47,036 nt of DNA, from assembly GCA_030647435.1 (NCBI GenBank), contig JAUSJX010000041.1, forward strand, positions 1-47,036, written 5' to 3'. The notes under the pieces were generated by a model that had not been told where the DNA came from, searched no databases, and worked only from the letters and a program-made list of their open reading frames with translations. Source of the DNA: Candidatus Rokuibacteriota bacterium. GTDB lineage: Bacteria > Methylomirabilota > Methylomirabilia > Rokubacteriales > CSP1-6. Shown piece by piece: positions 11,855 through 46,202 of the stretch. Numbering within the stretch: position 1 is the first letter of the stretch; each line of letters begins with the position of its first letter. The position numbers and the translations under genes are program-made.

Positions 11855-11868
11855 GCCTTTGACGTTCA

Positions 11869-11902: not shown

Positions 11903-11918
11903 TCGAAGGTTCACGCGT

Positions 11919-11995
11919 GCGCCCATAGCTCAGCTGGATAGAGCGTTAGCCTCCGGAGCTAAAGGTCAGAGGTTCGAATCCTCTTGGGCGCACCA
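11919..11995 (+). tRNA. tRNA-Arg (CCG)
   Basis: Acceptor GCGCCCA/TGGGCGC with A73 and encoded CCA; anticodon stem TTAGC/GCTAA around CTCCGGA, giving anticodon CCG; T loop TTCGAAT. Complete and regular. Confidence 0.96.
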
Positions 11996-12023
11996 TTTCT
12001 TACGTGGTGGTACCCGCGCACGC

Positions 12024-12099
<76 letters not shown>

Positions 12100-27617: not shown

Positions 27618-28862
27618 CTACTCCCCCCAGCCCATGAAGCCCCTGACCCGAATGAGCGTAGGGTCAGTCTCGCCCCAACGAGCCGCGAGGATTGCATAGA
27701 GCCGCTCGGCCTCGGCGCGGTCGCCGCGGTCGATGGCATCGTGGAGATCGCGGAGCGCGCGAGTGCCCTCCTCGCCTCGGTCGTCGGTGCGCATTAGGTC
27801 TCGGAGGATGGCGTTGCTGTCCCGACCCTGCACGAACACGTCGTGGTCTTGCAGCGTCCCGTCGACGAGCCGGCGCACCTGACGGTTCTCCGCACTGCTT
27901 AAGACCTGCGGCGAATGCGTGGTCACGACGAGCTGCAGCCTCGGGAAGGCCGTGCGCAGGCCGGCGAGCGCCACGCGCTGCCACCGCGGGTGGAGGTGGA
28001 GATCGATCTCGTCGATGAGCACTACGCCTTCCAAGCGCTGCGGCGCGTCGGCGCCGTCGATCTCGTTCAGCATGACGGCCCGTCGGGCGATATCGGCCAC
28101 GAGGGCGATGAATGCGTGGTACCCATCGGAAAGCTCGGACCATGGGGCCACGTGGCCGGCTTCGAAGCGCACCATCGGGCTCTGCTCCACCGGGTCGTAC
28201 CAGGCGTTGACCACGCCCGGCGTGGCTCGGACCGCTGCCTCCATCACAGCCTTATCGAAGAAGCGCTCCGGTTCTCCTTGTCGCTGCCGGGCCACGTCCC
28301 CAAGCATCTCGTCCTGGAGCCACTGGAGCAGCTGCGCCTCGTCAAGCCTCGGGTCGAGCGAGGAGGCGTAGGCTTCCCAGCGGTCCCGTACGCGCTCGTC
28401 CCGGAGGGGTCGCCCGCGGCTGCGCTGCATGCGATCGACGCCGTACCAGGCGAACAGGGGCCACCGGTCTCCGGGGACGCGGACCTTCTCTATGGCCTCA
28501 AGAATCGGACGGTGCCGATTCGTGCTCCGACCCGACGCAGGCTGGACGGTGGTGGACCACTCAACGGATTCGACCTCGCCCACGGCCGCCGTCCATGTCA
28601 CCGTGCAGCGGCCGACCGGTTCGCGCCGGCCCTTCTCATCGAGCGTGCGCTTCCTGGGATCGCGGCGGGCATCGAGCTTGAGCGTCTTCGGCGACCCCTT
28701 CTGGACCACGGCAAGGCCCATCGCCAGGGCCGTGAGCAGTGCGGTCTTGCCGCCACCGTTCTCGGCGAAGAAGACGGTGACGTCCTCTTCCAGCGGAAGC
28801 TCGAGCGTCTCGAAGCAGCGGTAGTTCTCGACCCGGAGATGGCTGAGCCGAAACTGGGTCAT
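27618..28862 (-). CDS. ptuA: PtuA-like AAA/ABC-type ATPase
   Basis: A 414-residue ATPase of the RecF/SMC-like (AAA_21/AAA_15) class. Walker A is AENGGGKTALL (residues 33-43), an ABC-like signature LSDGYHAF lies at 244-251, Walker B is VVLIDEIDLHLHP (280-292), and the switch His is in TTHSPQVL (314-321). There is no long coiled coil, as in PtuA. The tail contains a region of charged helices (residues 340-414). Next to a TIGR02646 HNH gene this is the Septu arrangement. Its ATG overlaps the methyltransferase stop (ATGA at 28859-28862). Confidence 0.82.
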   Translation of the reverse strand: MTQFRLSHLRVENYRCFETLELPLEEDVTVFFAENGGGKTALLTALAMGLAVVQKGSPKTLKLDARRDPRKRTLDEKGRREPVGRCTVTWTAAVGEVESVEWSTTVQPASGRSTNRHRPILEAIEKVRVPGDRWPLFAWYGVDRMQRSRGRPLRDERVRDRWEAYASSLDPRLDEAQLLQWLQDEMLGDVARQRQGEPERFFDKAVMEAAVRATPGVVNAWYDPVEQSPMVRFEAGHVAPWSELSDGYHAFIALVADIARRAVMLNEIDGADAPQRLEGVVLIDEIDLHLHPRWQRVALAGLRTAFPRLQLVVTTHSPQVLSSAENRQVRRLVDGTLQDHDVFVQGRDSNAILRDLMRTDDRGEEGTRALRDLHDAIDRGDRAEAERLYAILAARWGETDPTLIRVRGFMGWGE

Positions 28863-31800: not shown

Positions 31801-32806
31801 GAAGGCGCCGGAGCGTGTACCCCTCGGCGTACAGGTGACGGGCTGCGTCGGGCGCGCTCTTCGGGTGGAGGAGGTTCCGCTCCTCGACTGTGAGCAGGAA
31901 GATGAGCCGATAGACGAGCCGGAGAAGCTGCCCGAAGTAGTTGTCCCTCGTGAGATCGCCGGCGTGCAGCGCGGAGCGGAGGCCGGTGTTCGCCGGATGC
32001 GAGAGAAAACCGTGACCGAGGATCTCGAGCGCCCGCTCGAAACCGACGCTCAGCTTCTCCCGTGCCCGAGTCCCTTCCTGCCGCCCCGCCTCGCGCCAGG
32101 CCTCCAGCGGGCACGTGTCGGCGGACTCCTCGGCACGGCCGAAGCGCGACTCATGCACGAGGAGCCAGAGCGCGGCAAAGTCCGGGTACAGGCTCTCGGT
32201 GAAGATCCGGGCGAGGTCGGCCTCGATCCACGCGGGCCGGGTTAGGCTGGCGTTGTCGCGTGCGAGCCGAAGCACGAGCCCGTCCGACGTCAGCCCCCAG
32301 CGTGCAGCGCTGAGGGCGTTGAGGACCTCCTGTAGCAGGCCGAATGCGCTCCGTCTTCTCCTGCCGTCGCCGAGTTCGGGCAACGGAGCGTCCAGCCCCG
32401 CGCCTGCCGGGGCGACGACGATGGGTACCCGATCGCCGAGTGCGAAGAACCGGACCGGGTACACCCGCTCGCCCAGCACCGTTGGATCGGCGCGTACGAT
32501 TGACGTGAAGCCGAACGCGTCGCGCAGGAGTCCTTCGACGAAGCGCTCGGCCAGCGCGAGAGCGTTGCCGCCCGACGCACGACCGGCTTCCAGCTCCTGA
32601 AAGCACGCCTGAGCGATTCGCCAGCTCCGGGCGATCTCGTCGCGCAGGTGAAGGCCCTTCGGAATGCGATAGTCGGCCAAGGCCTGCGCGCTGGCCTCGA
32701 GCTGAGCAAGTTTGCCCAGCCACTCCGCGCCGAGAAGTCCGCCCTCGATGGAGAGGGCATCGAATGCGAGCTGCGCCTCGCGCACGGCGCCCCGCTGGGG
32801 CGCCAT
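28859..32806 (-). CDS. Large adenine-specific DNA methyltransferase (DrmMI / type IIG-like)
   Basis: A 1315-residue protein with an N6-adenine methyltransferase core. A helical N-terminal part (about 1-430) leads into GSYYTPDELV (463-472), SAM motif I VDPACGSGHFLLAA (505-518), the acidic IYGVDMNPLAVELCK (552-566) and catalytic motif IV LGNPPW (764-769). The C-terminal third resembles the target-recognition domain of Eco57I-like and BREX PglX enzymes. No PD-(D/E)XK nuclease motif is visible near the N-terminus, so it may only methylate. Size and place beside a SNF2 helicase fit DrmMI of class 1 DISARM. It likely marks self DNA; that is inference. It starts two bases after the helicase stop. 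Confidence 0.85.
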   Translation of the reverse strand: MAPQRGAVREAQLAFDALSIEGGLLGAEWLGKLAQLEASAQALADYRIPKGLHLRDEIARSWRIAQACFQELEAGRASGGNALALAERFVEGLLRDAFGFTSIVRADPTVLGERVYPVRFFALGDRVPIVVAPAGAGLDAPLPELGDGRRRRSAFGLLQEVLNALSAARWGLTSDGLVLRLARDNASLTRPAWIEADLARIFTESLYPDFAALWLLVHESRFGRAEESADTCPLEAWREAGRQEGTRAREKLSVGFERALEILGHGFLSHPANTGLRSALHAGDLTRDNYFGQLLRLVYRLIFLLTVEERNLLHPKSAPDAARHLYAEGYTLRRLRDRAIRRSAHDRQGDLWEVVKIVFRGLATGEPRLGLPALAGLFASEECPELDGAMLENRALLGALFHLAWLREPSGLVRVNWRDMGPDELGYVYEGLLELVPQITKDGRSFSFASADESRGHARKTTGSYYTPDELVQLLLASALDPVVKRAVDAHPDRPVDALLDLAVVDPACGSGHFLLAAARRLADHVARIRAAGTPTPDDYQRALRDVVRRCIYGVDMNPLAVELCKVSLWMESIDPGLPLTFLESHIRRGNALLGTTRGLMGDQVPDAAWIVLEGDDKNVTTSLKRRNKEEIAGQRLLRLERRNGTGALRDAMRAIEQAPDADVAALAEKECQWKALLGSQAYEHEKLVADAWCAAFLWPKDKPGPVVETAPTTATWLALRDKEAPPSEVLVETTRHIAEDYVLFHWELAFPHVFARGGFDVVLGNPPWEHIELKEQEFFARREPSIADAQNAAIRKDLIAALPVTSPQLWEEWQLAKRKAQGEMHFARSSGRFPLCARGRINTYPLFAEHNWGVLAPHGRAGFIVPSGIATDDMTKEYFQALLDRRVLASIYHFENEGLVFKGLHHAYRFVLLTIGEAERADLVFYARRVLDLDDEERHFALAPADFATLNPNTHTCPTFRWRRDAEMNLALYSRTNVLWREGDPDGNPWGLRFMQGLFNMASDAALFRTRGELVAAGWTPQGNRFVKDREVMLPLYEAKMIHNFDHRFGTYEGQTEAQSNQGKLPELDDAAHANPRRVTLARYWVTQTEIESRLEGVSDRGWLLGWRDITGTEKVRTVIACVIPRVGVGHTLPLMFPTPDAHTVACLCANLASLCFDYAARQKVGGTHLTYSYLKQLPVLPPSIYPTCCPWNVAQALRDWFLPRVLELTYTAWDLKPFAEDCGDDGPPYIWDPERRFQLQCELDAAFFHLYSIPPDDAGYILDTFPVLARSDERAYGEYRTKRMVLDVYDALAGAAAAGRSYVSPLGPPTRAS

Positions 32807-32808
32807 CG

Positions 32809-35595
32809 TCAGCCTACCCTCGGGAGGAGCACGTATACACCGATGACATCGGGGCGCGGGAGGGCTTGGACGGAGGTGCTTCCGACGCCCCGGCCGGCCT
32901 CGCGCACGCGCACGTGGTCCTCGAGGAGCGCGCGGGCGCGCGCGGCGGCGAACGCCTCGAGGTCCGAGGTCCGCTCTTCGATCAGGGCGACCGCCCGCGC
33001 CGCCTCGCGCTCGCGGACGTGGCGCGGGGGATCGTCAACGGGCGGGAGCGTGAGAAGCGAGAGCGCCTCCGAGCCCGTGACCTGCTCCTCGGTTCCGGCG
33101 CCAACCCAAGCGAGGGCTGTGGCCTCCTCGACCATGAGCGTGGTCTCCTGCCGCTGCCTGCGCGAAAGGAGCTGGTGCCGTAGGCGCAGGAGCGCGATCG
33201 TCGTGCGGACCCGCACCCCGTCTGAGATCCAGCAGCCCACACGCCCCAGGATCGAGGGGTCGTTGCTGGAGACGTCGTTGTTCTCCACCGACAGCGTACG
33301 GCCGAGCAGCGTCTCGGCGAGAACGGCAATCAGGGGATGACTGCGCTGGACGGGACGGCATCCAGGCGCCGATGGATAGGTGAAGTCGATGGCGACTGTG
33401 CCCGCGATGCCCTCGGTCTCGAGGCGCTCCCGGACCTCCACCGGCAGCGGCGCTGTGGCGACCTTGAATCCGCGCCGCAGAGGCTCGAGCCCCGAGCCGA
33501 GCCGGGCGAGAGCACGGCCGGCAAAGCGCTGGACATCTTCGCGGCCACCAATCGCTGCAAGGCTCTTGTGCCACTCCGGCAGGACCTCGTCGGGCTTGAT
33601 GCGCCGCTGGGCGAACACCGTCCGGTTCCTCTTCGCCTTCGTCTTCGCGTCTTCCCATTGGGTCTCGAAGAGCTCGAGCTGGTGACCCTCCAGGGCGCCG
33701 GAACCGCCGCGCCGCCGGAGCAGCACCGCCTTGAGCAGCGCCTGGGTCAGCGTGTGGCCCTCATCCGGCACCGGAACGGGCACGCCCAGCTCCTCGCGGA
33801 TGCGGGCGGCCTTGCGCAGGATGACCTGGAGCACGGCTCCGTCGACCGGATTGTTCACCCCGTAAAGCAGCGTAGCACGCACCGTCTTGCTCGTCTGGCC
33901 GAAGCGGTCGACGCGGCCCTCCCGCTGTTCGTGGCGTGTCGGGTTCCAAGAAAGGTCGTAGTGAACTACCGCATCGAAGTACTCCTGCAGGTTGATTCCC
34001 TCCGACAGGCAGTCAGTGGCGACCAGCACCCGAGAGCGCTCGGCCGCACCGATGCGTGCGACATGCTCCGCGCGGTCCTCGGGAGGCATCTCGCCGGTGA
34101 TGACGTCGACGGTTGCGCCGCCGAGATGCTTGCGAAGGTGGCGGGCCACGTAATGGGCCGTCGCGATGAACCGGCAGAAGACCACGACGTTGAAGCCAGC
34201 TTGGACCAGCTCCGCGACGTGGTCCGATGCCGCCTTGAGCTTCGGATCGCCGCTCTGGCCTGCGAGCTGCTGGGCCTGTGCGATGAGTCCCGCCAGCGCC
34301 AGATCATCGCTGCCGACAGGGGGCTCCACGTCGTCTTCGACGAGGGCATCGATATCGCCATCGAAGATGCGATCAAGCAGATCCTCGCGAGCCTCGTCTC
34401 CGAGGTTTTCGCCGGTACGGGTCCGCAAGGCGAGTACGGCGGCGAGAGGGCTCGAGGCTGCACACCGCAACAGCGCCAAAGTGCCCCAGAAGTTGAGGCG
34501 CTGCCGCTGCTCATCTCCCGCCCCTGCCTCGACGACCTCGGCGCAATAGTCGAGGACCTTGCTGAAGAAGTCCTCCCAGGCCCCGCTCAGCCTGTAGGTG
34601 ACCTCCTTCGTCTCGCGGCGCGGAAAGATGTCGCCCTCATGCCAGTCGGCAATGTCCGCCCGCCTCCGCTGTACAAAATGGTGTGCGAGGCGCTCGCGCA
34701 CGCGTTCGCGCTCCGAGCCGACGAGCTCAGACAGGCGCTCAAAGTCCGGGGCGAGGAGCCCGAGCAGCCGGTAGAAGGCCGCATCGTTCCCGCTGTGCGG
34801 GGTGGCGGTGAGCAGGACGAGGTGACGAGACGCGCTCCTCGCCAGGTCCTCGAGCAGCTCGTGGCGCTGATGGTGACCCCGGCCGACAGCGGCGCATGTA
34901 TGAGCCTCATCGACGATCACGAAGTCGGGACATGCGTGGAGAAAGTGGTCCCGTCGTTCTCGGCTTTTGATGTAATCGAGGCTCACGACCGTGTGGGGAT
35001 ACACCGAGAAGATGCTTACGCCAGGGGGGATTCCCCGCTCTAAGCGGCGCGCGCTCTGCGACGTCACAGCCACGGCGCGGATGTGAAATCGAACTTCGAG
35101 CTCGGTCACCCACTGGTCCACCAGGTGCGGCGGGCAAAGGACCGCCGTCCGGTCGATGTCGCCGCGGTCGAGAAGCTCGCGCGCAATGAGCAGCGCCTCG
35201 ATCGTCTTGCCGACGCCAACGTCGTCGGCGATGAGAAGGCGCACCGGATCGAGCTTGAGCGCCATGAGCAGCGGCACGAGTTGATAGGCGCGCGGTTCCA
35301 CCGAGATCTGCCCGAAACTCCGAAACGGCCCAGCCCCCCGGCGCAGCGAGAGGAGCAACGCGTCTCGCAGCAAGAGCGCGGCGTCGTGCCCCCCGAGTTG
35401 ACGTGGATCGGGTAGCGGGAAACGAGCTTCGCGGACCGGCTCTGCCTCAAGTGGCAAGTGAATCAGCGTCTGGTCGTCGTCGGAGCCGGTCATCGGACGA
35501 ACCCGGAGCGTCTCTGCTGTGCTGCCGGTCAGGACGATCCACTCTCGTCCTCGGGCGCTGACAAGGCTTCCGGGAGAGTAGACGAGGTCGGTCAC
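32809..35595 (-). CDS. SNF2-family helicase (DrmD-like)
   Basis: A 928-residue SNF2/SWI2-type ATPase. Motif I is IADDVGVGKT (122-131) and motif II VDEAH (228-232); LLTATPHSG follows as motif III, and the C-terminal RecA lobe has VLVATDCLSEGINLQ and the arginine-finger segment HEQREGRVDRFGQ. The opening (SPGSLVSARGREWIVLTGST) is that of DISARM DrmD proteins. Such enzymes move along double-stranded DNA. In class 1 DISARM, DrmD and DrmMI are neighbours, as here. ATG 35595 overlaps the stop of the large helicase gene (ATGA). Confidence 0.87.
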   Translation of the reverse strand: MTDLVYSPGSLVSARGREWIVLTGSTAETLRVRPMTGSDDDQTLIHLPLEAEPVREARFPLPDPRQLGGHDAALLLRDALLLSLRRGAGPFRSFGQISVEPRAYQLVPLLMALKLDPVRLLIADDVGVGKTIEALLIARELLDRGDIDRTAVLCPPHLVDQWVTELEVRFHIRAVAVTSQSARRLERGIPPGVSIFSVYPHTVVSLDYIKSRERRDHFLHACPDFVIVDEAHTCAAVGRGHHQRHELLEDLARSASRHLVLLTATPHSGNDAAFYRLLGLLAPDFERLSELVGSERERVRERLAHHFVQRRRADIADWHEGDIFPRRETKEVTYRLSGAWEDFFSKVLDYCAEVVEAGAGDEQRQRLNFWGTLALLRCAASSPLAAVLALRTRTGENLGDEAREDLLDRIFDGDIDALVEDDVEPPVGSDDLALAGLIAQAQQLAGQSGDPKLKAASDHVAELVQAGFNVVVFCRFIATAHYVARHLRKHLGGATVDVITGEMPPEDRAEHVARIGAAERSRVLVATDCLSEGINLQEYFDAVVHYDLSWNPTRHEQREGRVDRFGQTSKTVRATLLYGVNNPVDGAVLQVILRKAARIREELGVPVPVPDEGHTLTQALLKAVLLRRRGGSGALEGHQLELFETQWEDAKTKAKRNRTVFAQRRIKPDEVLPEWHKSLAAIGGREDVQRFAGRALARLGSGLEPLRRGFKVATAPLPVEVRERLETEGIAGTVAIDFTYPSAPGCRPVQRSHPLIAVLAETLLGRTLSVENNDVSSNDPSILGRVGCWISDGVRVRTTIALLRLRHQLLSRRQRQETTLMVEEATALAWVGAGTEEQVTGSEALSLLTLPPVDDPPRHVREREAARAVALIEERTSDLEAFAAARARALLEDHVRVREAGRGVGSTSVQALPRPDVIGVYVLLPRVG

Positions 35596-38500
35596 GGTAC
35601 GCGCCCCAGAGCGGTCGCCAGGCGTGCGAAGGCCCCATTCCAGGTCGCTGGGTCCTCAAACAAGATGACGTCGAAGCCGAGGTTCTCTATTGCTTGCAGG
35701 CCTGGACGGTCGGCCTCGTCGACCACGGCCGCGACGTAGTGCCTGCGCCAAACGAGGTTCAGCCTCCGCTCTCCAAAGATGAGTGGGTCCGGATCGGGCG
35801 CTGGGATCCCGCGACGAGTTGCCTCGGCGAGCCAGCGGTCCTCCCCCGCATCGGCACCGTTCACCGGAACCGATACCTGCAAAGGAGGGAGACCGAGGCA
35901 CGCCGTCTCTGCGCTTGAGAGACGAAGCAGGATCTCGCGGGTGGCCTCGTCGCGACGGTCGAGGATCTCGTGGTCCGGCTGGTTGTAGTAGGACATCAGG
36001 CAGCGATAGCAGGCGGCCACGCAAGCCGTGCCGGGCTGGTCGACGAGTGCCGACCGAGCCGCGGGCAGGGGGCCGTCGCCGACTGCGAGGTGCATTACCT
36101 GCAGGGCTTTGCGCGCGACGGTGGCGAGGCTGCTCTTTTCGCTGACCAGCCGCGTGAGCACGCCGGCGCCCCCCTCGGTCGCCTCGTAGAGCAGAAAGCC
36201 GTTGCGGACGTCACGCGTGGGCATCGGCTCGGCGAGCATCTCGCCCTCCTCGAGTTGGAACACCGCCTCGATGCCTCGCAGGAGGGCGTGCTGCACAGTG
36301 GCCAGCGTAACCTCGGAGAAGGCGTCACCGACGGGCCGAAAGAGGAGAGCGTTCTTGCGATCCTGGACGCTGGGGACGATCCACTGCCGAGGCGACGCCG
36401 TGGGATCGATCCCACCATCGCCCTCGTCCTCGTCCCTGTTCTTTGCCCAGTATCCGGACACCGGATCGATGCGGAAGCCGAGCACCTTCTTGTCGGCTCG
36501 ACGGCGCAGACCTTTGTTGAGCCGGGTGATCGTCGCACCGGCGCCGTAGGCCATGCGCACGATCTCGCCCTCCTCGTCGCAAGCCGAGGCGCGCCGCACA
36601 TCGATCTCCTGGTCACGGATGGCCCACTCGAAGGTCGTCTGCAAGTCGAAGCCCTGTCGCGTTCGCTCCTCGTCGTTAGCGGTGATCCGCTCTGCCGGCT
36701 GCGTGGCGACATTCTCGATGCGGTAGACGTGGTTGACGACCTCGGCGGTGCCGAGCGAAGTACCGCAGGCGCGACACATCGACAGGTCGTCTCCGAAGTG
36801 TCCAGCTCCGCAATTCGAGCAGATCCGGACGGCCTTCGTGGGCAGCTGGGCGTCCGGCGTCGCGGATTCTCGGTGGCCGAGAGAGAGGAGCGCGCGCACG
36901 ACCCGGTACGCGCGCCCTTCGTGATAGACGAGGCTGCGGGGACCGAACTCGGCGAGCGCCAGGAAGCGCGGACGCTGCAGGTAGGTCTGCCGTCCGCGAC
37001 CATCCCGAGTCGCTGGGATGTAAGCCAGAAGGGGCAGCCTGGGAAAGTTGTACCCAGGCAGGAATCCTTCCGTGGCAAGGTAGCGGTACGTGTAGAAGTC
37101 GCTCGAGAGGGCATTCGTCCCGCGCTGGAGCAAGTTGAGCTGGTCGATGGCCTGTGCGTGCCGGCTTTGGGCCGCCCGCTTCTCCTGGTAAGGGGCAGAA
37201 TAATCGTCCATCGTTCGTCGAGCGGCGTCCCGTTGCTCCTCCGCGGCGGCGAAGAGGTCTCTCCAGCGATCGAACGCCTTGTCGAAGCGCTCCAGCGCGG
37301 AGACCACAATGGCATCGGCGTAGTCCGCACGCCCGGTGTACCAGGGCGCGAGCTCGGAGGTGAGATCGTCCGCCACAAGATCGAGGACACGCTTGATACG
37401 TTCGCTCGCCAGCTCTGCGACACGCCGTTCTTTCATGGATGCGATGATCTCGGGCTTGAGCGGGCGGATCGTGTCGTTAAGAACGAGCAGCTCCGCGATG
37501 CAGGGGTCGAGTGGCTGATCGACGCAAGAGAGCCAGATTGCCTGCAGATGGCTCTCGATCAGGTCGCGGTTCGCGAGCTCGAGCAGCGGTGCGCGCACCT
37601 CGCCGTGTACCATCGCCTTGGGATCACGGAAGAAGTACTGATCGTGTGGGCTCTGAGAGGAAGCGTAGGTGATGACCAACGCTGCCTGGCCGCTGCGGCC
37701 AGCCCGTCCGCTGCGCTGTGCGTAGTTCGCCGGCGTGGGCGGGACGTTGCGCATGTGAACCGCATTCAGAGCCGAGATGTCGACGCCAAGCTCCATCGTG
37801 GGAGAACAGAAGAGGACCGGCAGGAAACGGTTCGCCTCGCCAATGTCCCGGAGCCGCTTCTCTTCTAACGCCAGCTCTTGGCGTTCTCTGTCGCCGAAGC
37901 GGAACCGTTTCTCCCGGATCTCACGATTGTCGGGATCGACCTGTGCGGTGTGCTCGCGCGCCTCGAAGCCAAAGAGCGGGTGCATCGGGGCGCGGAGCAT
38001 CGTGGCGAGGTTCCCGTAGAGGTCTCGAAAGAACACGTTCTGTGTGGAGGCACTGGCGTCGGTCGATGGATCGCCCAACCGGAACACGACGCACGCATCG
38101 TTGAGTCGCCAACCCGGCTGGTCGAAAGGCGTGCTCTCCTCGGACACGAGGCCATGTATCGCCGCCGCGCGGAGCAGGTCGCTCACGAGCTGGTCGAAGT
38201 CCTTGGACTTCACGTCGCGGATGGAAGTGTCTCCTCCCCAGAGGTTCGCGGAGCGCAACGTTTTGCCGAGCCCGCTGCGCGAACCGCCGCGCACGATGAG
38301 ATCCATGTCGCGCAGCGTGCTCGCCCGGCGAGTGGGCGGGACGATCATGAGCCAGCGTGCCCCGCGCGGGCTTTCATCCATTCCGAAGCCCCAGGGTGGA
38401 CGGATCCGACTGTGCGACTTCGCAACCAACTGCTCGAGCACCGCAGCGTCGAGCACCTGGCTGCGGATCGCCAGCCACTTGCGCAGATGATCGAGCAGCT

Positions 38501-40925
38501 CGCGATAGACTCCCGTGCGGACTTCGGGCCTAGATTGTTTAAGCACGGGGTGCGATCCGGCGAAGAGTTCATCGTCCGCCGCCAGCTCCGCGAGCCCTAG
38601 ATATTCGACGCGGACCAAGCCAAGCTGCTCGAGGTTGGGATTCGTGTATCGCCATCCGCGTCGCTGATCGAACCAGACGCGGTAGGCGAGTACCTGGCGA
38701 AGGGTGCCTTCGGCCTCCTGGAGATTGAACCCGCGTAGCGAAGCCTCGAGTAACCACTCGGCGCGGATCTGTGGGTCAGGCCGATTAAAACCGAGCGTGC
38801 TCTGCTGCGCCGCACCCAGCTCGTCGCTGCGGAGCCCCCTCGAGCCCGCATCCTGGAGCGCGCCGAGAAAGCCCGCGCGGATAAGGCTCACGAACAAGAA
38901 GTCGTTGAAATGGCCGGCCTGGAGGGCGGCGTCCTGGCGGTTGTCGGAGAAGCCAAGAAGTTTCCGCGTGTAAAGTGCCATGCCCGACTGGGCGCCGTGC
39001 ATCCAATGCAACACGCTGGAAACCAGAACGGTGGTCGCCGAGCTGCGACCTTCGGCAGAGAGGGACGCGAGACGTGTCCTATCACGTGCTGCGCCGCCCT
39101 GCGTGCCTCCGCAGCGAAGGCAGAGCCGGAACTTGCCCGGAAGAAACCATGCTTTCGTCCCAGAACCGATGCGGCCGTCCGGAGCGACGGTGAAGCGCCG
39201 CGCGCGCGCTCCCCGGTAGCTCGGCTTGAGGCGCGGGTTACCGCTGGTGTCGAACTCCAGCCAAGTCTCCGGATAGTCTTCGTCCCGGTCATCGAAGGTA
39301 AATCCGGTATCGTGGGACGGGTGTGGCGTTAGGAAGCCGAAGGTTTCGCCCTCGGGCTGTTCGTCCTGGCCATCGGTCTCGTCACTCTTGGCCGGAGGAG
39401 CGTCGTCGATGTCACGGGCGAGGAGGATCGGTGCGCCTTCCTCCTTCACCAACCTCACCGGGTGATACTCGTGACCGCACTCGCGGCAGAAGTGCAGAGC
39501 GTAGAGGCGCTTGTCAGGTTGTTCAGGGAAAAATTGCTGCCCTTCGACGGTCACCTTCCGCGTGCCGTCTGGCTCCATGGTCGCGTAGGCGTGGCCGGCA
39601 CCAGAGATGAACTGATGGAGCTTGAAAGCGAAAAAACTCTTCTCGCTCGCTCCTGGAACTGAAGTCCGAAGTTGCTCGGGGACACTGGAGACGAGGAGGA
39701 GATCTCGGAGCGCCCTTCGGCACGCGGGCGCGTCGCGACCCGCTTCGGCCGAGAGGGTCATGACCGCCTCCGTCTCCGTCATGGGCTTCGCGCGGACCCA
39801 GCGCTGGTCGACCTGGGAGAAGGAAATCCCGAGACGAGTCTCCACCCAGACCGCGAGCGGGTGCTCCCGCAGCGCCGCGTCCGGAATGTCCTGCGGGACG
39901 CCGGCGTCAATGGCCTTGCCCAGCAGTGGGCGAACAGACTCCGCCGTTGCCGCAGAGTCCGTGATGCGTTCCAGAGTTTCCACGATGACGTTGCTCTCGC
40001 CGATGGAGTTCGCAAAGAGCTTCGAGGCCACGCGAGCAACCACCCGGCTCTTATCCTCCACCGAGCCCTCGCTGGCCATCGTGGCGGAGGTGCCGATGCA
40101 GAGGAGCTTCTCGGGCTGGAGCCTCTCGCGGACGCGGCGCACCAGCAAGGCCACATCTGCACCCTGGCGCCCCCGGTAGGTGTGGAACTCGTCCAAGACG
40201 AGGAACCGGAGACCTGCGCAGTTGCCGATGACCCGGCGATCGATGCCTTCTTGCCTCGTCATGAGGAGCTCGAGCATCATGAAGTTCGTGAGCAGGATGT
40301 CGGGGGGCTCCTCAGCGACCCGCTTGCGCTCGTCGGCGTCCTCCTGCCCCGTGTAGCGGGCAAACGTGATCGGCGGTCGTCCCGGGACGTTTCCAACGAA
40401 CTTCCCGAGCTCCTCCATCTGGGAGTTTGCGAGCGCGTTCATCGGATAGACCACGATGGCGCGCGTACGACGTTGCGCGCTCGAACGTCGTGCGCTTAAC
40501 ACGTGGCTGACAATCGGGATGAAGAAGCAGAGCGACTTACCCGAACCGGTGCCGGTCGTGACGACGAAGCTCTCCCCTTCAGTGGCGAGTGCGATCGCCT
40601 GCTCCTGGTGCTTATAGAGGGACAGCGGCCGCCCGTCTGCCTGGAAAATGTCGGCACAGCCCGGGTCGAGCACGCCGCTGTTCACGAGCGCGCTCACGTC
40701 CGCCGTACGCTTATAGCTCGGGTTGATCTGAATCAGTGGCTCCGGCCAGTACCGCTGCTCGGCGTAGATCGCTTCGACCTGGTCGCGGATATCCTGCGCG
40801 TAGATCGTCGTGAAAGAGGTTGCGAAACGCTTGTACTCCTCGACGACGCTGTCGCGGAGGGAGAACACGTCGAGAGCAAGAGCACCATCGCTTCCGCCAG
40901 CCTTTTTCGCAGCGTGGGTGCTCAT
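35592..40925 (-). CDS. Giant DEAD-box/DUF1998 helicase (DruE-like or fused DrmA-DrmB)
   Basis: A 1777-residue superfamily 2 helicase. Motif I is TTGTGSGKS (123-131), Ia YPMNALANSQ (160-169), II VLDEFH (243-248), III GTSATM; the second lobe has LFCSPTMELGVDISALN and motif VI QRSGRAGRSG. The C-terminal DUF1998/MZB part shows YEATEGGAGVLTRLV and CVAACYRCLMSYYNQPDH; two more zinc ribbons lie upstream (CRECGHEY; CSNCGAG...CRACG). After DUF1998 about 90 residues (RRLNLVWRRHYVAAVVDEAD, then LQAIENLGFDVILFED) look like a VSR/DUF559-type fold. This size and domain order match DruE of Druantia, or DrmA and DrmB of DISARM in one chain. ATG 40925 overlaps the regulator's stop; upstream in-frame sequence overlaps that gene. 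Confidence 0.87.
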   Translation of the reverse strand: MSTHAAKKAGGSDGALALDVFSLRDSVVEEYKRFATSFTTIYAQDIRDQVEAIYAEQRYWPEPLIQINPSYKRTADVSALVNSGVLDPGCADIFQADGRPLSLYKHQEQAIALATEGESFVVTTGTGSGKSLCFFIPIVSHVLSARRSSAQRRTRAIVVYPMNALANSQMEELGKFVGNVPGRPPITFARYTGQEDADERKRVAEEPPDILLTNFMMLELLMTRQEGIDRRVIGNCAGLRFLVLDEFHTYRGRQGADVALLVRRVRERLQPEKLLCIGTSATMASEGSVEDKSRVVARVASKLFANSIGESNVIVETLERITDSAATAESVRPLLGKAIDAGVPQDIPDAALREHPLAVWVETRLGISFSQVDQRWVRAKPMTETEAVMTLSAEAGRDAPACRRALRDLLLVSSVPEQLRTSVPGASEKSFFAFKLHQFISGAGHAYATMEPDGTRKVTVEGQQFFPEQPDKRLYALHFCRECGHEYHPVRLVKEEGAPILLARDIDDAPPAKSDETDGQDEQPEGETFGFLTPHPSHDTGFTFDDRDEDYPETWLEFDTSGNPRLKPSYRGARARRFTVAPDGRIGSGTKAWFLPGKFRLCLRCGGTQGGAARDRTRLASLSAEGRSSATTVLVSSVLHWMHGAQSGMALYTRKLLGFSDNRQDAALQAGHFNDFLFVSLIRAGFLGALQDAGSRGLRSDELGAAQQSTLGFNRPDPQIRAEWLLEASLRGFNLQEAEGTLRQVLAYRVWFDQRRGWRYTNPNLEQLGLVRVEYLGLAELAADDELFAGSHPVLKQSRPEVRTGVYRELLDHLRKWLAIRSQVLDAAVLEQLVAKSHSRIRPPWGFGMDESPRGARWLMIVPPTRRASTLRDMDLIVRGGSRSGLGKTLRSANLWGGDTSIRDVKSKDFDQLVSDLLRAAAIHGLVSEESTPFDQPGWRLNDACVVFRLGDPSTDASASTQNVFFRDLYGNLATMLRAPMHPLFGFEAREHTAQVDPDNREIREKRFRFGDRERQELALEEKRLRDIGEANRFLPVLFCSPTMELGVDISALNAVHMRNVPPTPANYAQRSGRAGRSGQAALVITYASSQSPHDQYFFRDPKAMVHGEVRAPLLELANRDLIESHLQAIWLSCVDQPLDPCIAELLVLNDTIRPLKPEIIASMKERRVAELASERIKRVLDLVADDLTSELAPWYTGRADYADAIVVSALERFDKAFDRWRDLFAAAEEQRDAARRTMDDYSAPYQEKRAAQSRHAQAIDQLNLLQRGTNALSSDFYTYRYLATEGFLPGYNFPRLPLLAYIPATRDGRGRQTYLQRPRFLALAEFGPRSLVYHEGRAYRVVRALLSLGHRESATPDAQLPTKAVRICSNCGAGHFGDDLSMCRACGTSLGTAEVVNHVYRIENVATQPAERITANDEERTRQGFDLQTTFEWAIRDQEIDVRRASACDEEGEIVRMAYGAGATITRLNKGLRRRADKKVLGFRIDPVSGYWAKNRDEDEGDGGIDPTASPRQWIVPSVQDRKNALLFRPVGDAFSEVTLATVQHALLRGIEAVFQLEEGEMLAEPMPTRDVRNGFLLYEATEGGAGVLTRLVSEKSSLATVARKALQVMHLAVGDGPLPAARSALVDQPGTACVAACYRCLMSYYNQPDHEILDRRDEATREILLRLSSAETACLGLPPLQVSVPVNGADAGEDRWLAEATRRGIPAPDPDPLIFGERRLNLVWRRHYVAAVVDEADRPGLQAIENLGFDVILFEDPATWNGAFARLATALGRVP

Positions 40926-41158
40926 GACTTGCTCCGCCTTCTCCTCGTGGAGGTGACATTCCCGCCGCGCTCCTGTTGCTGGCGCTCGATCCACTCGTCG
41001 ATGTCGTGGCGCCGGAAACGCCAGGCGTCGCCCACCTTGAACGCCGGTAGTTCGCCGCGTTCCGCCATCCGGTACACGGTGCGCTGATTTACGCTCAAGT
41101 ACTCGGCCAGCTGCCGGACTGTCCACGCGGGATGAGGAGATTCGCTCATGCTTGTCAT
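40922..41158 (-). CDS. Excisionase-family helix-turn-helix regulator
   Basis: A 78-residue MerR_17/excisionase-type DNA-binding protein: WTVRQLAEYLSVNQRTVYRM is the helix-turn-helix, ELPAFKVGDAWRFRRHDIDEW the wing, and the tail RRRRSKS is basic. It is the first gene of the minus-strand operon and overlaps the helicase start by four bases (ATGA), so it is coupled to it. The start may be ATG 41158 or 41149; neither has a Shine-Dalgarno site, and the predicted promoter leaves a leader of only about 20 bases. A role as the operon's own regulator is likely by position, not shown. Confidence 0.8.
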   Translation of the reverse strand: MTSMSESPHPAWTVRQLAEYLSVNQRTVYRMAERGELPAFKVGDAWRFRRHDIDEWIERQQQERGGNVTSTRRRRSKS

Positions 41159-41186
41159 CATGGGACGAGGAGCCATGGGTGGCAAC

Positions 41187-41215
41187 ACAGTACACGAGAG
41201 AGCAGCTGGAAACAA
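41187..41215 (-). promoter_or_regulatory. Predicted promoter of the defence operon
   Basis: On the minus strand TTGTTT (41215-41210) and TACTGT (41192-41187) are separated by exactly 17 bases, a reasonable sigma-70 pair. Transcription would begin near 41180, about 20 bases before the regulator's ATG. Confidence 0.5.
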
Positions 41216-41226
41216 GTAGTTACTTG
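41213..41226. promoter_or_regulatory. Palindrome overlapping the -35 box (operator candidate)
   Basis: CAAGTA-GT-TACTTG is a perfect inverted repeat with a two-base centre. It overlaps the predicted -35 box of the defence operon, where a bound repressor would block RNA polymerase. The HTH protein encoded just downstream is the obvious candidate ligand. Confidence 0.45.
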
Positions 41227-41244
41227 CATTAGCTTGGCGATGAA

Positions 41245-41276
41245 GTTGATGTTGCCCACCGTTGATGTTGCCCACC
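41245..41276. repeat. Two tandem 16-base repeats upstream of the operon promoter
   Basis: GTTGATGTTGCCCACC occurs twice head to tail (41245-41260 and 41261-41276). A related inverted form, GGGTGGCAACAC, lies at 41177-41188 next to the -10 box. The placement suggests binding sites for a regulator. Confidence 0.55.
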
Positions 41277-41384
41277 ATTGTCTCGACGAGCACCGGCACT
41301 CTGAGCCGGGTCCAGCATTTCGGGTTCGTATGGACGGCCCGCGAACTCGCGCGCCAAGTGCGTGCGACAAGCGATGCTCGGCGG

Positions 41385-41530
41385 CGCGGCCTGCGGCGTG
41401 CACGCCGAGCGATAGATCCGCCGCGCTCGCTCCTGCGCACGCCTTGGCCGCGGGATCGCACGCGCGGTTCCTGGCACGGTTGGCGCCGCGGCCTTCGGCG
41501 TGCAGGATGAAGCGCACGCCTCGGCCGCGG
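41385..41530. repeat. Hairpin repeat pair A and B (78-base period)
   Basis: Hairpin A: CGCGGCC-TGC-GGCGTGC (41385-41401) pairs with GCACGCC-TT-GGCCGCG (41437-41452) around a long loop. Hairpin B: CCGCGGCC-TTC-GGCGTGC (41486-41503) pairs with GCACGCC-TC-GGCCGCGG (41514-41530) around a 10-base loop. Both keep a 3/2-base internal bulge between two seven- or eight-base helices. The pair fills part of the 785-base divergent gap 41159-41943, whose remainder (41531-41943) shows no supported gene. Confidence 0.7.
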
Positions 41531-41943
41531 TCACACGCGAGGTTGATCATCCCGTAGCGCGGTAGCGTCCACCCGCCAGCAGACGGGCCCGCGGGCCCGC
41601 GTCCAGTCAAGTACATTCCCGTCCGCAGCACTGTCAATCGTATCGCCCCTTTCACCTCCCTCAACCCCTCCGGGCTTCGCCCTCCGGGGTCCTCCGCTTC
41701 GCTCCGGCCCTGCGGGTGACGGAGGCGAAACCGGCGGGAGGCGGCCCGACTGGGTCCACGTGGCGCTCTGGCCTCTTCTCGGTCCGTGCGTTCCTCTCAC
41801 GCGCGCGCCTTCGCGATTGCGCGCGCGCCCTCGCCTGGATGTGGGGTCGCCTCCCGCCTGGGGCGCTCGCAGATGAGCGTCTGCGGGCGGGGCTCGCAGG
41901 GGGCCGGCGTTGGTGCCGGCTCAACCTTCCAGGGAGGTGCGTC

Positions 41944-43467
41944 ATGGCTGGAGCACTGGGTTTCGTGGCGGTGGTCGGGGCGCGGGTGTTGCCGGAGACG
42001 GCGGCACCCCAGGTGGCGGAGGCGGTGCGGTGTTTTCTCTCGCGGGGCTGGGGCATCGGGTCGGGCGGCGCGCGGGGTGCGGATCACTACGCCCTCAGCG
42101 CGGTGCTGGCCGCGGGGCCGTCGGCGTGCGCGCGCTCGGCGGTGTTCCTGCCGGGTGCGGTACCCAGGGAATCACACACCCTTCACGCGTTTGTGGCGCG
42201 GGGCGGGCGTGTCGTCCCGGGCGCCGGGGCGGGTCGGCGTGCTCTCCTCGCGCGCTCCCGGCGGCTCGCGCGGGAATCGGCTGGGGTGGTCGCCTTCCTC
42301 TGGGGTCCGTCGCGGGGCTCGGTGTTCACGGTGCGGGAAGCAGCCCGGGCGGGGAAGCCCGCCGCAGTGGTCCTCGCCGGCGGTGGCGCTGTGCTGCCGG
42401 TGTTCACGGGTGGCCGGTGGGCGCCGTGCCGCTTCGGCGCGGTTGAAGGGTTCCGGTGGCAACTGGAGCCGCTGGAGCGCGCGCAGCCTTCCTGGCTTGC
42501 GCGCGTGTTCCAGGTGCCAGAGGGCGAGCCCATCCACGCCCAGCTCGAGCACATCGCCTCGCTGAGCGGCGGCGAGCGGCTGTGGTTCGAGCGCGGCGTC
42601 CTCGCCGGCGACACGGTGCTGGTGCCGCACGAAGCGCTGTCCGACACGCCCGCTTTCTTGGCCACACGCCGGCTGATGCGGCGCTTCCGGTGCGAGGTCC
42701 GCGACGCCGCGGGACTCGCCGAGCTTTTCCTGGCCCTCGATGCCGGCGCGGATGTGGTCGCCCACTACGAAGACGAGGCGCGGCGCGTTGGCGTCGCGCG
42801 CGTCATCGAAGACTTGGTCCACCTGGTCACGCGCCTCGCGCTCGTCGAGCAGGCGCCCGAGACCGACGCACTCGAGCACGCTGAGGCCCTCGGCGACGGC
42901 GTCGAGTGGGTTGACGAGGCCGGGCGGGTTGCACAGGCCGCAGGGCAGTCACGGGGCGAGGCTGCCCAGTCCACCGTGCAGTGGCATGCCCTGGGAACGC
43001 TGCACCCCGAGCGGGTGACCTGCCCAGTGTGCAGGGCAGTCTCCGACGCCGATGAGGACTCGGGCGAGCTGCCGACCTGTCCCGGGTGCGGCACGCGGGA
43101 CACCTGGGAAGCGCGGCAGGGCGGCCGCTTCCGCGGCATCGTGGGCGCGATCGACGCGTGCCCGTCGCTCGAAGAGCTGGCGGCGCTCGGCAAGCGGCTC
43201 TACGCGCTCCAGCTCACGCACGATCAGGCGGGCGTGGCGTGGTCACACTACCACCTGCGCAGGGCCGCGCTCGAGCACGCCGTGACGCTCCGGCAGCCCG
43301 CGCGAGCCCTCCTCGCGCAAGTCGAGCGCGCCACGCCGCGATCGCTCGGGCAGCTCGGCGGGCGGCTCTACCGGCTCCAGCACGCCAGCGCCGTGTCCGT
43401 GTCCACCACCGAGTGGCGGCGGATCTGGTCGGTCTACCAAGCGCGGCGCGCCCCGGCCCGCGCGTAG
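41944..43467 (+). CDS. DprA/SLOG-like Rossmann protein with zinc ribbon
   Basis: A 507-residue protein. The N-terminal domain (about 1-150) has the SLOG/DprA pattern: AVVGARVLPE, GIGSGGARGADHYAL (nucleotide loop, 37-51) and WGPSRGSVFTVREAARAGKP (120-139). A helical middle follows (about 180-330), then a zinc ribbon VTCPVC...TCPGCG and a helical C-terminus (ALGKRLYALQLTHDQAGVAW, RLYRLQHASA) containing two repeats of a similar helix pair. SLOG proteins bind or make nucleotides or load single-stranded DNA. CAGGGAGGTG precedes ATG 41944. It heads the recombination-gene segment and is flanked on both sides by hairpin repeats. Confidence 0.7.
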   Translation: MAGALGFVAVVGARVLPETAAPQVAEAVRCFLSRGWGIGSGGARGADHYALSAVLAAGPSACARSAVFLPGAVPRESHTLHAFVARGGRVVPGAGAGRRALLARSRRLARESAGVVAFLWGPSRGSVFTVREAARAGKPAAVVLAGGGAVLPVFTGGRWAPCRFGAVEGFRWQLEPLERAQPSWLARVFQVPEGEPIHAQLEHIASLSGGERLWFERGVLAGDTVLVPHEALSDTPAFLATRRLMRRFRCEVRDAAGLAELFLALDAGADVVAHYEDEARRVGVARVIEDLVHLVTRLALVEQAPETDALEHAEALGDGVEWVDEAGRVAQAAGQSRGEAAQSTVQWHALGTLHPERVTCPVCRAVSDADEDSGELPTCPGCGTRDTWEARQGGRFRGIVGAIDACPSLEELAALGKRLYALQLTHDQAGVAWSHYHLRRAALEHAVTLRQPARALLAQVERATPRSLGQLGGRLYRLQHASAVSVSTTEWRRIWSVYQARRAPARA

Positions 43468-43533
43468 GTCAGGCGCGCACAGGCGCTCGCCATCGCAGGT
43501 GGTGCGCGCGCGACCGGTCCATCGGTCGCCGGC

Positions 43534-43653
43534 GGGGCCTTCGCCGTGCAGGGTGCAGCGCACGGCTCGGCCCCGGTCACGCGCGCGGAACGTGACGCCC
43601 ACACGCGCGCCGCGGCCATCGGCGTGCAACCAACCCCGCACGCCTCGGCCGCG
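43534..43653. repeat. Hairpin repeat pair C and D (78-base period)
   Basis: Hairpin C: GGGGCC-TTC-GCCGTGC (43534-43549) with GCACGGC-TC-GGCCCC (43560-43574), 10-base loop. Hairpin D: CGCGGCC-ATC-GGCGTGC (43611-43627) with GCACGCC-TC-GGCCGCG (43638-43653), 10-base loop. Compared with A, B and D, hairpin C differs in both arms of each helix in ways that keep pairing. C and D repeat at 78 bases. A separate small hairpin (GCGACCG...CGGTCGC) lies just before C near 43511-43529. The gap 43468-43790 holds no supported gene. Confidence 0.7.
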
Positions 43654-43790
43654 ATCACCCGCACCGCGTGCCGTATCCACGGCTTCCGGTTCCTTCTTCC
43701 CGTGTGTCCACTCCCTCGGCTCGCTCCGCTCGCCGCGATCTGATCGGGTCTGGTGTGGTTGGTGACCAGCATGGAAAGGAGGTGAGGCAC

Positions 43791-43982
43791 ATGTACCGCT
43801 GGGAGGTGCCGAAGGTGCTCGCGCGCCGGCTGGCGCGTGTCCGGGATCGCACGGGCGTGCCCGTGGCCCGCCAGCTCCGCCGCGCCGTCGACGAGTACCT
43901 GGACCAGCATGACGCCCCTGCCGAGCGAAGCGCGGCGCGGGCCACACCTATCACCGCCACACGAGGAGGAAGCGAACGATGA
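43791..43982 (+). CDS. Small ribbon-helix-helix-like DNA-binding protein
   Basis: A 63-residue protein. VPKVLARRLARVRDRTGVPV then RQLRRAVDEYLDQHD has the strand-helix-helix spacing of CopG/Arc repressors. GAAAGGAGGTGAGGCAC before ATG 43791 is a near-perfect ribosome site. It overlaps the SSB start by four bases and may regulate this segment. Confidence 0.6.
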   Translation: MYRWEVPKVLARRLARVRDRTGVPVARQLRRAVDEYLDQHDAPAERSAARATPITATRGGSER

Positions 43983-44374
43983 ACTGCGTGAATCACGTGC
44001 TGTTGCTTGGGAACTTGACCCGCGATCCGGAGCTCCGCTACACGCCCGCGGGGACCGCGGTGTGCGACGTCGGCGTGGCGCTCAATCGCCGCTGGAAGGA
44101 CCAGGCCGGCGAGGCGCAGCAGGAGACGACCTTCGTGGAAGTGACCGTCTGGGGCAAGCAGGCCGAATCGGTATCCGCGTATCTCACGAAGGGCCGCGCC
44201 GTCGCGGTCGAGGGCCGGCTCCAGCAGGACACCTGGGAGACGGAGGCGGGCGAGCGCCGCTCGCGCCTCAAGGTGGTGGGCCAGCGAGTGACCTTCCTCT
44301 CCTCGGCGCACGGCCAGCCCGCGCCCGCGGGGGAGACTGCGCCGGACTGGGTCACCGAAGAGGCCGAGCGGTGA
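43979..44374 (+). CDS. ssb: Single-stranded DNA-binding protein
   Basis: A 131-residue SSB with a complete OB fold: NHVLLLGNLTRDPELRYTPAGTAV, TTFVEVTVWGKQAESV and YLTKGRAVAVEGRLQQDTWET. The tail is short and ends EEAER rather than the DDDIPF-type tip that recruits partner proteins, which suggests an element-specific rather than housekeeping SSB. It is coupled by overlaps to the genes on both sides. Confidence 0.93.
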   Translation: MNCVNHVLLLGNLTRDPELRYTPAGTAVCDVGVALNRRWKDQAGEAQQETTFVEVTVWGKQAESVSAYLTKGRAVAVEGRLQQDTWETEAGERRSRLKVVGQRVTFLSSAHGQPAPAGETAPDWVTEEAER

Positions 44375-44595
44375 TTGCCGGCGGCGCCAGCGTGTCCGCG
44401 CTCGAGATCATGCGCATGATCCGGAGCGCGCTCCGGGAAGCGCGCGACCTCACGACCGCCATCCAGGTGCTCGCCGACCGCGTGGACCGGCTCACCGGTG
44501 AGCTTGCCGAGGGTGAGCTCCTGGAGTTGACCAAGCTCGCGGCCCAGGCGCTCCGAGCCTTCGAGACCACTCACAACGGAGGGAGGATCCCATGA
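44371..44595 (+). CDS. Small coiled-coil protein of unknown function
   Basis: A 74-residue helical protein (VIAGGASVSALEIMRMIRSA, then LTTAIQVLADRVDRLTGELA), with heptad-like Leu/Ile spacing. It starts at GTG 44371 overlapping the SSB stop and ends overlapping the start of the annealing protein. Position suggests an accessory of the recombination module. Confidence 0.55.
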   Translation: MIAGGASVSALEIMRMIRSALREARDLTTAIQVLADRVDRLTGELAEGELLELTKLAAQALRAFETTHNGGRIP

Positions 44596-45293
44596 ACCGG
44601 CAACTGCTGGAGAAGCCGTTCGAGCCCGCGCAGATCCGCCAGCGCAAGGGGCGCAACGGCATGCTCGACTACGTGGAGGGCCACAGTGTCATCCACCGTC
44701 TCAACGAGGCGCTCGACGGCGCGTGGTCCTTCGAGATCATGCAGCACGAGATCCGTGAGGACGAGGTGCTCGTGCTCGCCAAGCTCACCGCCGAGGGCAT
44801 CACCAAGATGAACTTCGGCGTGAGCCAGGTGACACGCGAGCGGGAATCAGGCGCGCTCGTGTCGCTCGGCGACGACCTGAAGGCCGCCGGCACGGACGCG
44901 CTCAAGAAGTGCGCGACGTTCTTCGGCGTGGGCTTGCACCTCTACGCGGAGAAGCCGATCGGTGGCCGCGGGCCCGCCGCGCGCAGCGTGCCCGCGCCGC
45001 CCACGCCCATGTCGGCACCGAGGCCACCGGCCAAGGCCCAGGTCAACGGCACACGGCCGGGCAACGGCGGCCAGCCCGGCAACGGCCGGCCGACCAACGG
45101 CCACGCCAACGCGAGCATCACGCCCCGCCAGCTCGACGCGATCTGGAAGGTGGGCCAGGCCAAGGGGCTCGACCCGAACGCGGTGGAACACATGAGCCTG
45201 CGCGTGTTCAACCGCAAGCCCGAGGCCCTCACTCACGAGGAGGGGGCCGCGCTCATCAAGGAGTTGTCGAACCTCAAGCGCCGCGTGGCCTGA
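44592..45293 (+). CDS. Rad52/Rad22-family single-strand annealing protein
   Basis: A 233-residue annealing protein of the Rad52/Rad22 double-strand-break-repair group. The conserved core is in the first 125 residues: LDYVEGHSVIHRLNEALDGA WSFE, then VLAKLTAEGITKMNFGVSQV and GDDLKAAGTDALKKCATFFGVGLHLY. A Pro/Gly/Asn-rich linker (about 130-175) leads to a small helical C-terminal domain (ITPRQLDAIWKVGQAKGLDP). Proteins like this anneal complementary strands during phage or ICE recombination. It follows the SSB and precedes a RecB-like nuclease, the usual order of such modules. Confidence 0.85.
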   Translation: MNRQLLEKPFEPAQIRQRKGRNGMLDYVEGHSVIHRLNEALDGAWSFEIMQHEIREDEVLVLAKLTAEGITKMNFGVSQVTRERESGALVSLGDDLKAAGTDALKKCATFFGVGLHLYAEKPIGGRGPAARSVPAPPTPMSAPRPPAKAQVNGTRPGNGGQPGNGRPTNGHANASITPRQLDAIWKVGQAKGLDPNAVEHMSLRVFNRKPEALTHEEGAALIKELSNLKRRVA

Positions 45294-45371: not shown

Positions 45372-46202
45372 ATGGTGCCACCCGAGATGCGCAAGCAGCC
45401 GCATGTCTCGTTCACGCAAATCGATCAGTACCTCCGCTGTCCGCTCAAGTACAAGTTCACCTACGTGGACCGCCTGCAGCCCGAGTTCGTGCCTGCGGCG
45501 CTGGCCTTCGGCTCCGGGATCCACGGGGCCGCGGCCTTCCTCTTCCGCGGCACGGCCGATGGCGCGCCGCCGAGCCTCGCCGACGTCCAGGCGTTCTTCG
45601 AAGCGTACTGGCAGCTCGAGACCGGCAACCGGCCGATCCGCTTCGGCGAGAAAGACACGAAGGAGAGCCTGCTCGACCTGGCCGGCCGGATGCTCGCGGT
45701 GCTCCACCGGAACCAGGAGCCCGGGATCGATATCGTCGGCGTCGAGCAGCCGTTCGACGTGCCGCTGATCGACCTCGACACCGGCGAGCTGCTCGACCGC
45801 GCGCTCGTCGGCACGCTCGACCTGATCGAGCGCGACGCCGGGGGGCGCATCGTCGTCGTGGATCTCAAGACGTCAGCCAGAAAGTACACCGACCTCCAGG
45901 CCGACGCGTCCCTTCAGCTCTCGGTCTACAGCTACGCGACGGCGATGAACGGCCTGGCCGACCAGGAGGACCTGCGGCTCCGGTTCGACGTGCTGACCAA
46001 GACGAAGCAGCCGGAGCTCTGCCGCTACTGGACGCAGCGGGATCGCGCCGCAAACCTCCGGCTCTTCCGGCTGGTGGCCGAGGTGTTGCACGCGATCGAG
46101 GCCGGCGTGTTCCATCCGAACCCGGGGTGGCAATGCAAAGACTGCCAGTACCGGAGCCGGTGCTGGGCGTGGCACGAGACCGTCAGTGTCGAGGGAAGGT
46201 GA
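45372..46202 (+). CDS. Cas4/RecB-like PD-(D/E)XK nuclease
   Basis: A 276-residue nuclease of the PDDEXK_1 family. Active-site pieces are H51 in GSGIHGAA, D150 in VGTLDLIER, D164-x-K166 in VVDLKTS and QLSVYSYA (Q182, Y186). Four Cys residues (C23 in YLRCPLKYKF; C255, C258 and C264 near the end) match the 4Fe-4S cluster site of Cas4/AddB-like enzymes. It likely acts as the exonuclease that feeds single strands to the annealing protein. No cas1 or CRISPR array is present, so it is not read as a CRISPR gene. GGGAGGATTCGTC precedes ATG 45372. Confidence 0.85.
   Translation: MVPPEMRKQPHVSFTQIDQYLRCPLKYKFTYVDRLQPEFVPAALAFGSGIHGAAAFLFRGTADGAPPSLADVQAFFEAYWQLETGNRPIRFGEKDTKESLLDLAGRMLAVLHRNQEPGIDIVGVEQPFDVPLIDLDTGELLDRALVGTLDLIERDAGGRIVVVDLKTSARKYTDLQADASLQLSVYSYATAMNGLADQEDLRLRFDVLTKTKQPELCRYWTQRDRAANLRLFRLVAEVLHAIEAGVFHPNPGWQCKDCQYRSRCWAWHETVSVEGR

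Follow-up and report, generated by a model that had tools for sequence, protein, structure and literature searches.

Tandem hairpins with a covarying internal loop beside a DprA-like/SSB/RAD52 gene set in Methylomirabilota

Four imperfect hairpins, A–D, lie in two pairs on either side of a dprA-like gene in a 47,036-nucleotide stretch of Candidatus Rokuibacteriota DNA (referred to here as the window), and they belong to a previously uncatalogued hairpin family for which we now have a working covariance model. The pattern of changes among the copies shows that the fold itself is selected, and we favor, with a probability of about 0.4, a reading in which A–D are copies of one single-strand recognition hairpin situated in the intergenic control regions of a gene module, most likely acting as RNA and with a regulatory role. 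The element is compact and structured, has an unusual covarying internal loop, and is tied to a DprA-like/SSB/RAD52 gene set in an uncultivated bacterial class. Transformation and defence, for example by the ShosTA system, are the settings in which DprA-like SLOG proteins are known, and if a module protein reads the hairpin, a specific nucleic-acid signal could be assigned to such proteins; should the hairpin be only a lineage-specific leader or terminator, the family is still uncatalogued and has a working covariance model.

The hairpins and their family

The features of the window that concern us are the following.

41385–41452, plus strand: hairpin A, long-loop type (loop 35 nt; internal loop TGC/TT; covariance-model match 39.4 bits)
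41487–41529, plus strand: hairpin B (loop 10 nt; internal loop TTC/TC)
41600–41943, plus strand: conserved non-coding leader of the dprA-like gene, common to two families
41637–41664, minus strand: sigma-70-type promoter motif, leftward, conserved, TTGAGG-16-TACGAT (position read from the sequence)
41944–43467, plus strand: dprA-like SLOG gene (507-aa product whose helical C-terminal half is conserved; PF02481; alignment; model and Foldseek)
43533–43575, plus strand: hairpin C (loop 10 nt; inner helix GCCGTGC, outer helix CGGGGCC)
43611–43653, plus strand: hairpin D (loop 10 nt; starts 78 nt past C)
43737–43786, plus strand: conserved box TGATCGGGTCTG...AAAGGAGGTGA ahead of a start codon, also present before module genes in other genomes
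43791–43982, plus strand: small ribbon-helix-helix (RHH) protein, weak match (RHH_3 17.1 bits, below the cut-off of 21.6)
43979–44374, plus strand: module feature between the RHH and RAD52 genes
44592–45293, plus strand: RAD52-type single-strand annealing protein (PF04098, 50 bits; PHROG single strand annealing protein)
45387–46202, plus strand: PD-(D/E)XK exonuclease, Cas4/RecB-like (PF12705, 127.9 bits; PHROG exonuclease)

All four hairpins share a core of a 7-bp outer helix, a 3/2 internal loop and a 7-bp inner helix, and they are the only perfect matches to this plan on the plus strand of the window, compared with a mean of 0.08 in 60 dinucleotide shuffles of the window and of 0.005 in 1000 shuffles of the 3-kb region. 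They had been placed correctly by an earlier sequence-only reading, which also described mostly 10-base loops and nearly equal spacing of the two pairs; the common core holds for all four, but the loop is 10 nt in B, C and D and 35 nt in A, and while C and D are indeed 78 nt apart, A and B have their 5′ arms separated by 102 nt (the 3′ arms by 77 nt). The double changes by which C departs from the others while preserving its pairing (GCC/GGC in the inner helix, GGGG/CCCC in the outer) are confirmed.

A DNA search of the window's own genome reveals a second hairpin pair on contig C91, following a 5′-truncated copy of the window's dprA-like gene. The sequence-only reading had proposed a covariance-model search over related metagenomes; applied to related genomes, such a search recovered a wider family. 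An early model of 12 copies was positive in 9 of 148 relatives, and a model built from 28 copies was positive in 14 of 388 genomes, for a total of about 34 copies. The 14 genomes belong without exception to a single bacterial class, ten to the window's family (f1) and four to a different one (f5); one of the 14, G049, is counted solely for a weak match (G049:C112) that we judge to be chance. That match and a second weak one, G044:C211, which lies within apparent coding sequence, were rejected because neither is accompanied by the leader or by gene relics. Most copies form tandem arrays, usually pairs, with 78–106 nt from start to start (78, 90, 91, 92, 94, 102, 105 and 106 nt are all represented), and the types recur by position: in the window and in loci L006, L009 and L050 the right pair opens with a GCC-type hairpin and closes with a GGC-type one. 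A pattern scan of public genomes returned four contigs, two named Rokubacteria, one Elusimicrobia (L009) and one Chloroflexi (L010); because L009 closely resembles a Rokubacteria contig, misbinning or transfer is likely.

Selection on the fold

Compensatory change among A–D had been taken as a sign that the fold is selected, with pairing-breaking mutations in further copies as the finding that would speak against it. Compensation persists in the 28 distinct aligned copies, where 96.7% of base-pair cells are paired (88.0% in shuffles) and 29 cells have changes on both sides (10.7 in shuffles), affecting five of the 14 pairs. The both-side cells, the percentage paired and the covariation score each exceed the values in all 500 shuffles, which ignore kinship, and slid-alignment controls give only 32–44% pairing. 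G-U pairs are nearly absent (2 of 434 cells), the pair changes being direct GC/CG swaps. Pairing is not absolute, since inner pair 3 is mismatched in some of the right hairpins of f5.

The strongest covarying columns do not form a Watson-Crick pair but lie within the internal loop, where 20 copies have T12/C41, eight have G12/T41, and none has a mixture of the two; C13, T40 and the loop base A21 are constant in all 28. Because both forms occur in one genome (A versus B in the window, and the first versus the second hairpin of L048), this switch is not a simple lineage marker. Reading the minus strand would put tandem G.A in the internal loop, although the variant form is not clearly isosteric, so that we do not take this as proof of the strand. 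The hairpin loop itself can be as short as 7 nt or as long as 36 nt, always next to a retained 3/2 internal loop plan, and in a comparison of L009 with L050, neither of which has a dprA-like gene, just one of 66 arm and bulge sites has changed, compared with 32 of 262 loop and flank sites (Fisher p = 0.006). Taken together, the covariation of the arms, its extension into the internal loop, and the sparing of the arms even where the gene is absent show that the fold is selected, and they support the suggestion that it acts in either RNA or single-stranded DNA form. Calculated folding energies are lower for the minus strand in 20 of the 28 copies as RNA and in 18 as DNA (p = 0.09 and 0.12).

A conserved protein-coding repeat, for which the minus strand offers a 26-residue frame, had been named as the other explanation that would undo this interpretation. 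It is excluded by the spacings of the arrays, which vary and include several that are not multiples of three (91, 92, 94 and 106 nt), so that no single reading frame is kept; the 35- to 36-nt loop of one hairpin type also disfavors it.

The gene module and the placement of the arrays

The protein encoded between the two pairs was suspected from the outset to be DprA/SLOG-like, and it scores 33.4 bits against PF02481 (gathering cut-off 29.6), with ShosA (1.5e-7) and DprA (1.2e-5) as the nearest solved folds in a Foldseek search with its predicted model. The DprA equivalog TIGR00732 is not reached (23.1 bits against a cut-off of 191.15), and the protein is a member of the DprA/SLOG superfamily that is not a canonical DprA. 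It has the N-terminal SLOG/DprA fold of both relatives (8zva, 3maj), from which it differs in lacking a canonical DprA score and in its extra conserved C-terminal half; ShosT was not identified beside the window's gene.

Downstream of the dprA-like gene in the window are genes for an RHH-like protein, SSB, RAD52 and the PD-(D/E)XK exonuclease; SSB and RAD52 are retained in L039 and L042, and the f5 module has in addition a RadC or ArdC-like protein. The set as a whole (dprA-like, RadC or ArdC-like, RHH, SSB, RAD52, exonuclease) looks like a mobile recombination module. Exactly these downstream classes make up phage-type annealing cassettes (SSB, a RAD52/Sak-like annealase and an exonuclease), but here they are joined with the hairpins as well as with a DprA-like SLOG gene. 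A box GATCGGGTCTG...AAAGGAGGTG stands just before several module-gene starts (window 43737–43786; L067 4933 and 4321, minus strand; L068 6106 and 6976), and this shared box is possibly a common operator or leader.

In f1, hairpins are found upstream of all four full dprA-like genes (window, L039, L042 and L043) and downstream of the first three, the L043 contig stopping about 210 nt beyond the gene; a hairpin also precedes the truncated gene of L045. Members of another family (G061, G063 and G064) have one hairpin downstream of the gene, and genome G021 has two intact copies. Whether copies always flank the same gene had been raised as a check, and they do not: there are left-only relics (L040, L046, L048) and right-only relics (L006, L010, L047), arrays without the module follow a Fic gene in L009 and a 134-aa ORF in L049, and other copies adjoin gene relics or different genes.

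The left arrays are followed by a leader that is conserved in both f1 and f5. Read leftward, its most conserved block is TTGA(C/G)N - 16 nt - TAnnnT in 11 of the 11 copies listed, and the spacer is conserved as well; T1, A2 and T6 of the −10 element are invariant in these copies and only positions 3–5 vary, and L067 and L068 have 10 of 12 matches to the motif. In the window the motif points away from the dprA-like gene and toward hairpins B and A, and it is directed into every left array with a surviving leader, including those of L040 and L046, from which the gene has been lost. Because the left arrays adjoin this conserved sigma-70-type motif, their sequence suggests that they are transcribed as RNA. 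Folding z-scores of the whole left regions are no more stable than shuffles in most loci, and consensus folds of the long leaders derive from too few sequences to trust.

We also note a second leftward copy of the promoter motif in L046 (at 8477), about 60 nt ahead of a gene that likewise reads leftward, as if captured as its promoter. In f5, another structured repeat, GGACGCTGGTTGCC...CGGTGTCGA, lies to the left of the promoter (L067 7350–7160, L068 3683–3890, L069 about 8485–8415), with two copies in L067 and L068 and a central hairpin that changes in both arms.

In the window, L006, L010, L042, L067, L068 and L069 the right arrays lie 130–191 nt before a same-strand start codon that has a good ribosome site (in L039 the next same-strand start is 791 nt away), and the promoter motif of the left arrays is absent beside them. 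One right hairpin (G065; L069) is about 3.8 kb from the dprA-like gene yet stays with the ArdC-like operon, 179 nt upstream of an ArdC-like gene, and in L067 and L068 the dprA-like gene has its own U-tract terminator ahead of the hairpin. Because the hairpin keeps its place when parted from the dprA-like gene, and because that gene has its own terminator, the right arrays are to be counted as part of the upstream region of the next operon.

Proposed role and alternatives

In the regulatory reading that we favor, the left array would be transcribed leftward from the motif at 41664–41637 as a short structured RNA, the right array would act from its place ahead of the RHH/SSB/RAD52 operon, in the upstream region, and a protein, perhaps made by the module, would read the internal loop together with the first loop base; the DprA-like, RHH and SSB proteins are candidates, and binding may set the expression of the module. 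Loops of such varied length around a constant 3/2 internal loop argue for a hairpin over a rigid double-stranded operator. Several observations weigh against this reading: the scarcity of G-U pairs, the absence of any Rfam covariance-model match to the hairpins, fold energies that favor neither strand, left regions that are mostly not extra stable, right arrays that have no promoter motif, arrays that follow unrelated genes, and the f5 mismatches. Plasmid antisense-RNA hairpins of the CopA/RNAI type resemble the left arrays in having a leftward promoter in a gene leader, bulged stems and variable loops; here, however, there is no replication gene and the right array has no leftward promoter. 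More tentatively, the hairpins may be dedicated single-strand sites, either ssDNA or RNA, that are read by a protein of the DprA-like/RAD52 module and that constitute a new kind of signal, restricted to Methylomirabilota, for the control or processing of mobile elements.

The main rival, which we consider doubtful, is that they function as single-stranded DNA during entry, transfer or resection, as sites of protein binding or priming or as ssDNA promoters. It owes this standing to neighboring genes that handle ssDNA (SSB, RAD52, the exonuclease, the DprA-like protein and, in f5, RadC or ArdC-like) and to the similar positions of the Frpo/ssi promoters, which precede ssb in the leading regions of plasmids (PMC11541004). 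Like those elements, the hairpins are repeated structured intergenic elements upstream of ssb-type genes on the same strand, and GC/CG swaps with almost no G-U also suit DNA. They differ in being GC-rich and in a different lineage; a promoter scan finds no −35/−10 hexamers in their arms, and relaxases of two families (PF03432 and PF08751, MOBP- or MOBF-type) are absent from seven module-bearing genomes. Further against a role in transfer, the dprA-like protein is unmatched in plasmid and phage collections and in IMG/VR, where the hairpin pattern is also unmatched.

It is unlikely that the arrays are GC-rich tandem terminators or 3′-end stabilizers, acting bidirectionally without a U-tract. Several do lie about 6–70 nt past a same-strand stop codon (of the dprA-like gene or its relic, a Fic gene, the 134-aa ORF, or a HEC-05-like gene), and those of L009/L050 and L049 are between convergent genes. 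A terminator would have no need, however, of an invariant A at the start of the loop, of invariant C13 and T40, or of a covarying internal-loop pair, and the f5 dprA-like gene already has a U-tract terminator before the hairpin; a scan of window 41000–44000 for a stem followed by a T run found no intrinsic terminator.

The proposal that the hairpins bound a mobile cassette with the dprA-like gene inside it, for example as attC-like or IS200/IS605-like sites, has fared poorly and we regard it as improbable. The two intact copies in G021 and the left-only and right-only relics are in its favor, as is the resemblance to integron attC sites, which are also imperfect hairpins of two short helices with an unpaired spacer and a variable end, near movable genes. 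Here, though, there are usually two tandem copies with a 400-nt conserved leader between hairpins and gene, and a strict scan of the window, L039 and L042 found no attC R-box (GTTRRRY/RYYYAAC), all of the hairpin boxes being GC-rich. Integron integrases above the TIGR02249 cut-off are encoded in seven of 12 hairpin genomes (G000, G013, G021, G027, G044, G052 and G056), but on contigs other than those with hairpins; in the surroundings of four of these loci there is no canonical attC by a strict scan, no model match at E < 0.2 and no hairpin of the plan. REP/BIME (RAYT) elements and IS200/IS605 ends are likewise extragenic imperfect palindromes with a bulge, from which the hairpins differ in being few per genome and in direct tandem orientation, and the Y1 transposase (PF01797) is found in only five of 12 hairpin genomes and not in the other seven. 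A simple cassette bounded by hairpins is at odds with the tie of the right arrays to the next operon and with the several arrays without a dprA-like gene, and neither a target-site duplication nor an empty site has been demonstrated.

Still less probable are double-stranded operators for a dimeric regulator such as the RHH protein, whose gene adjoins the right array: symmetric half-sites would change together too, but the half-sites are anywhere from 7 to 36 nt apart, the inner spacing is unequal (3 versus 2), and the covariation within the internal loop is not complementary. Least probable of all is quasi-palindrome template switching in place of selection, since although one arm of a GC-rich inverted repeat is readily copied onto the other and the pair changes are direct GC/CG swaps, such copying yields complementarity and could not produce the T.C to G.T switch of the internal loop.

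Defence genes are nearby in the window, L039 and L042. A defence-like operon on the minus strand of the window (27618–41195) encodes a PtuA-like ATPase, a DrmMI/type IIG-like methylase, a DpdE/DrmD-like SNF2 helicase and an 1867-aa DruE-like DEAD helicase carrying an MrfA Zn-binding domain, a mixed Druantia/DISARM-like combination. Elsewhere in the window there are three consecutive tRNA genes (11778–12096) and a long inverted repeat, CTCACCCTACCCTCTCCCC...GGGGAGAGGGTAGGGTGAG (3064–3147), unrelated in sequence to hairpins A–D.
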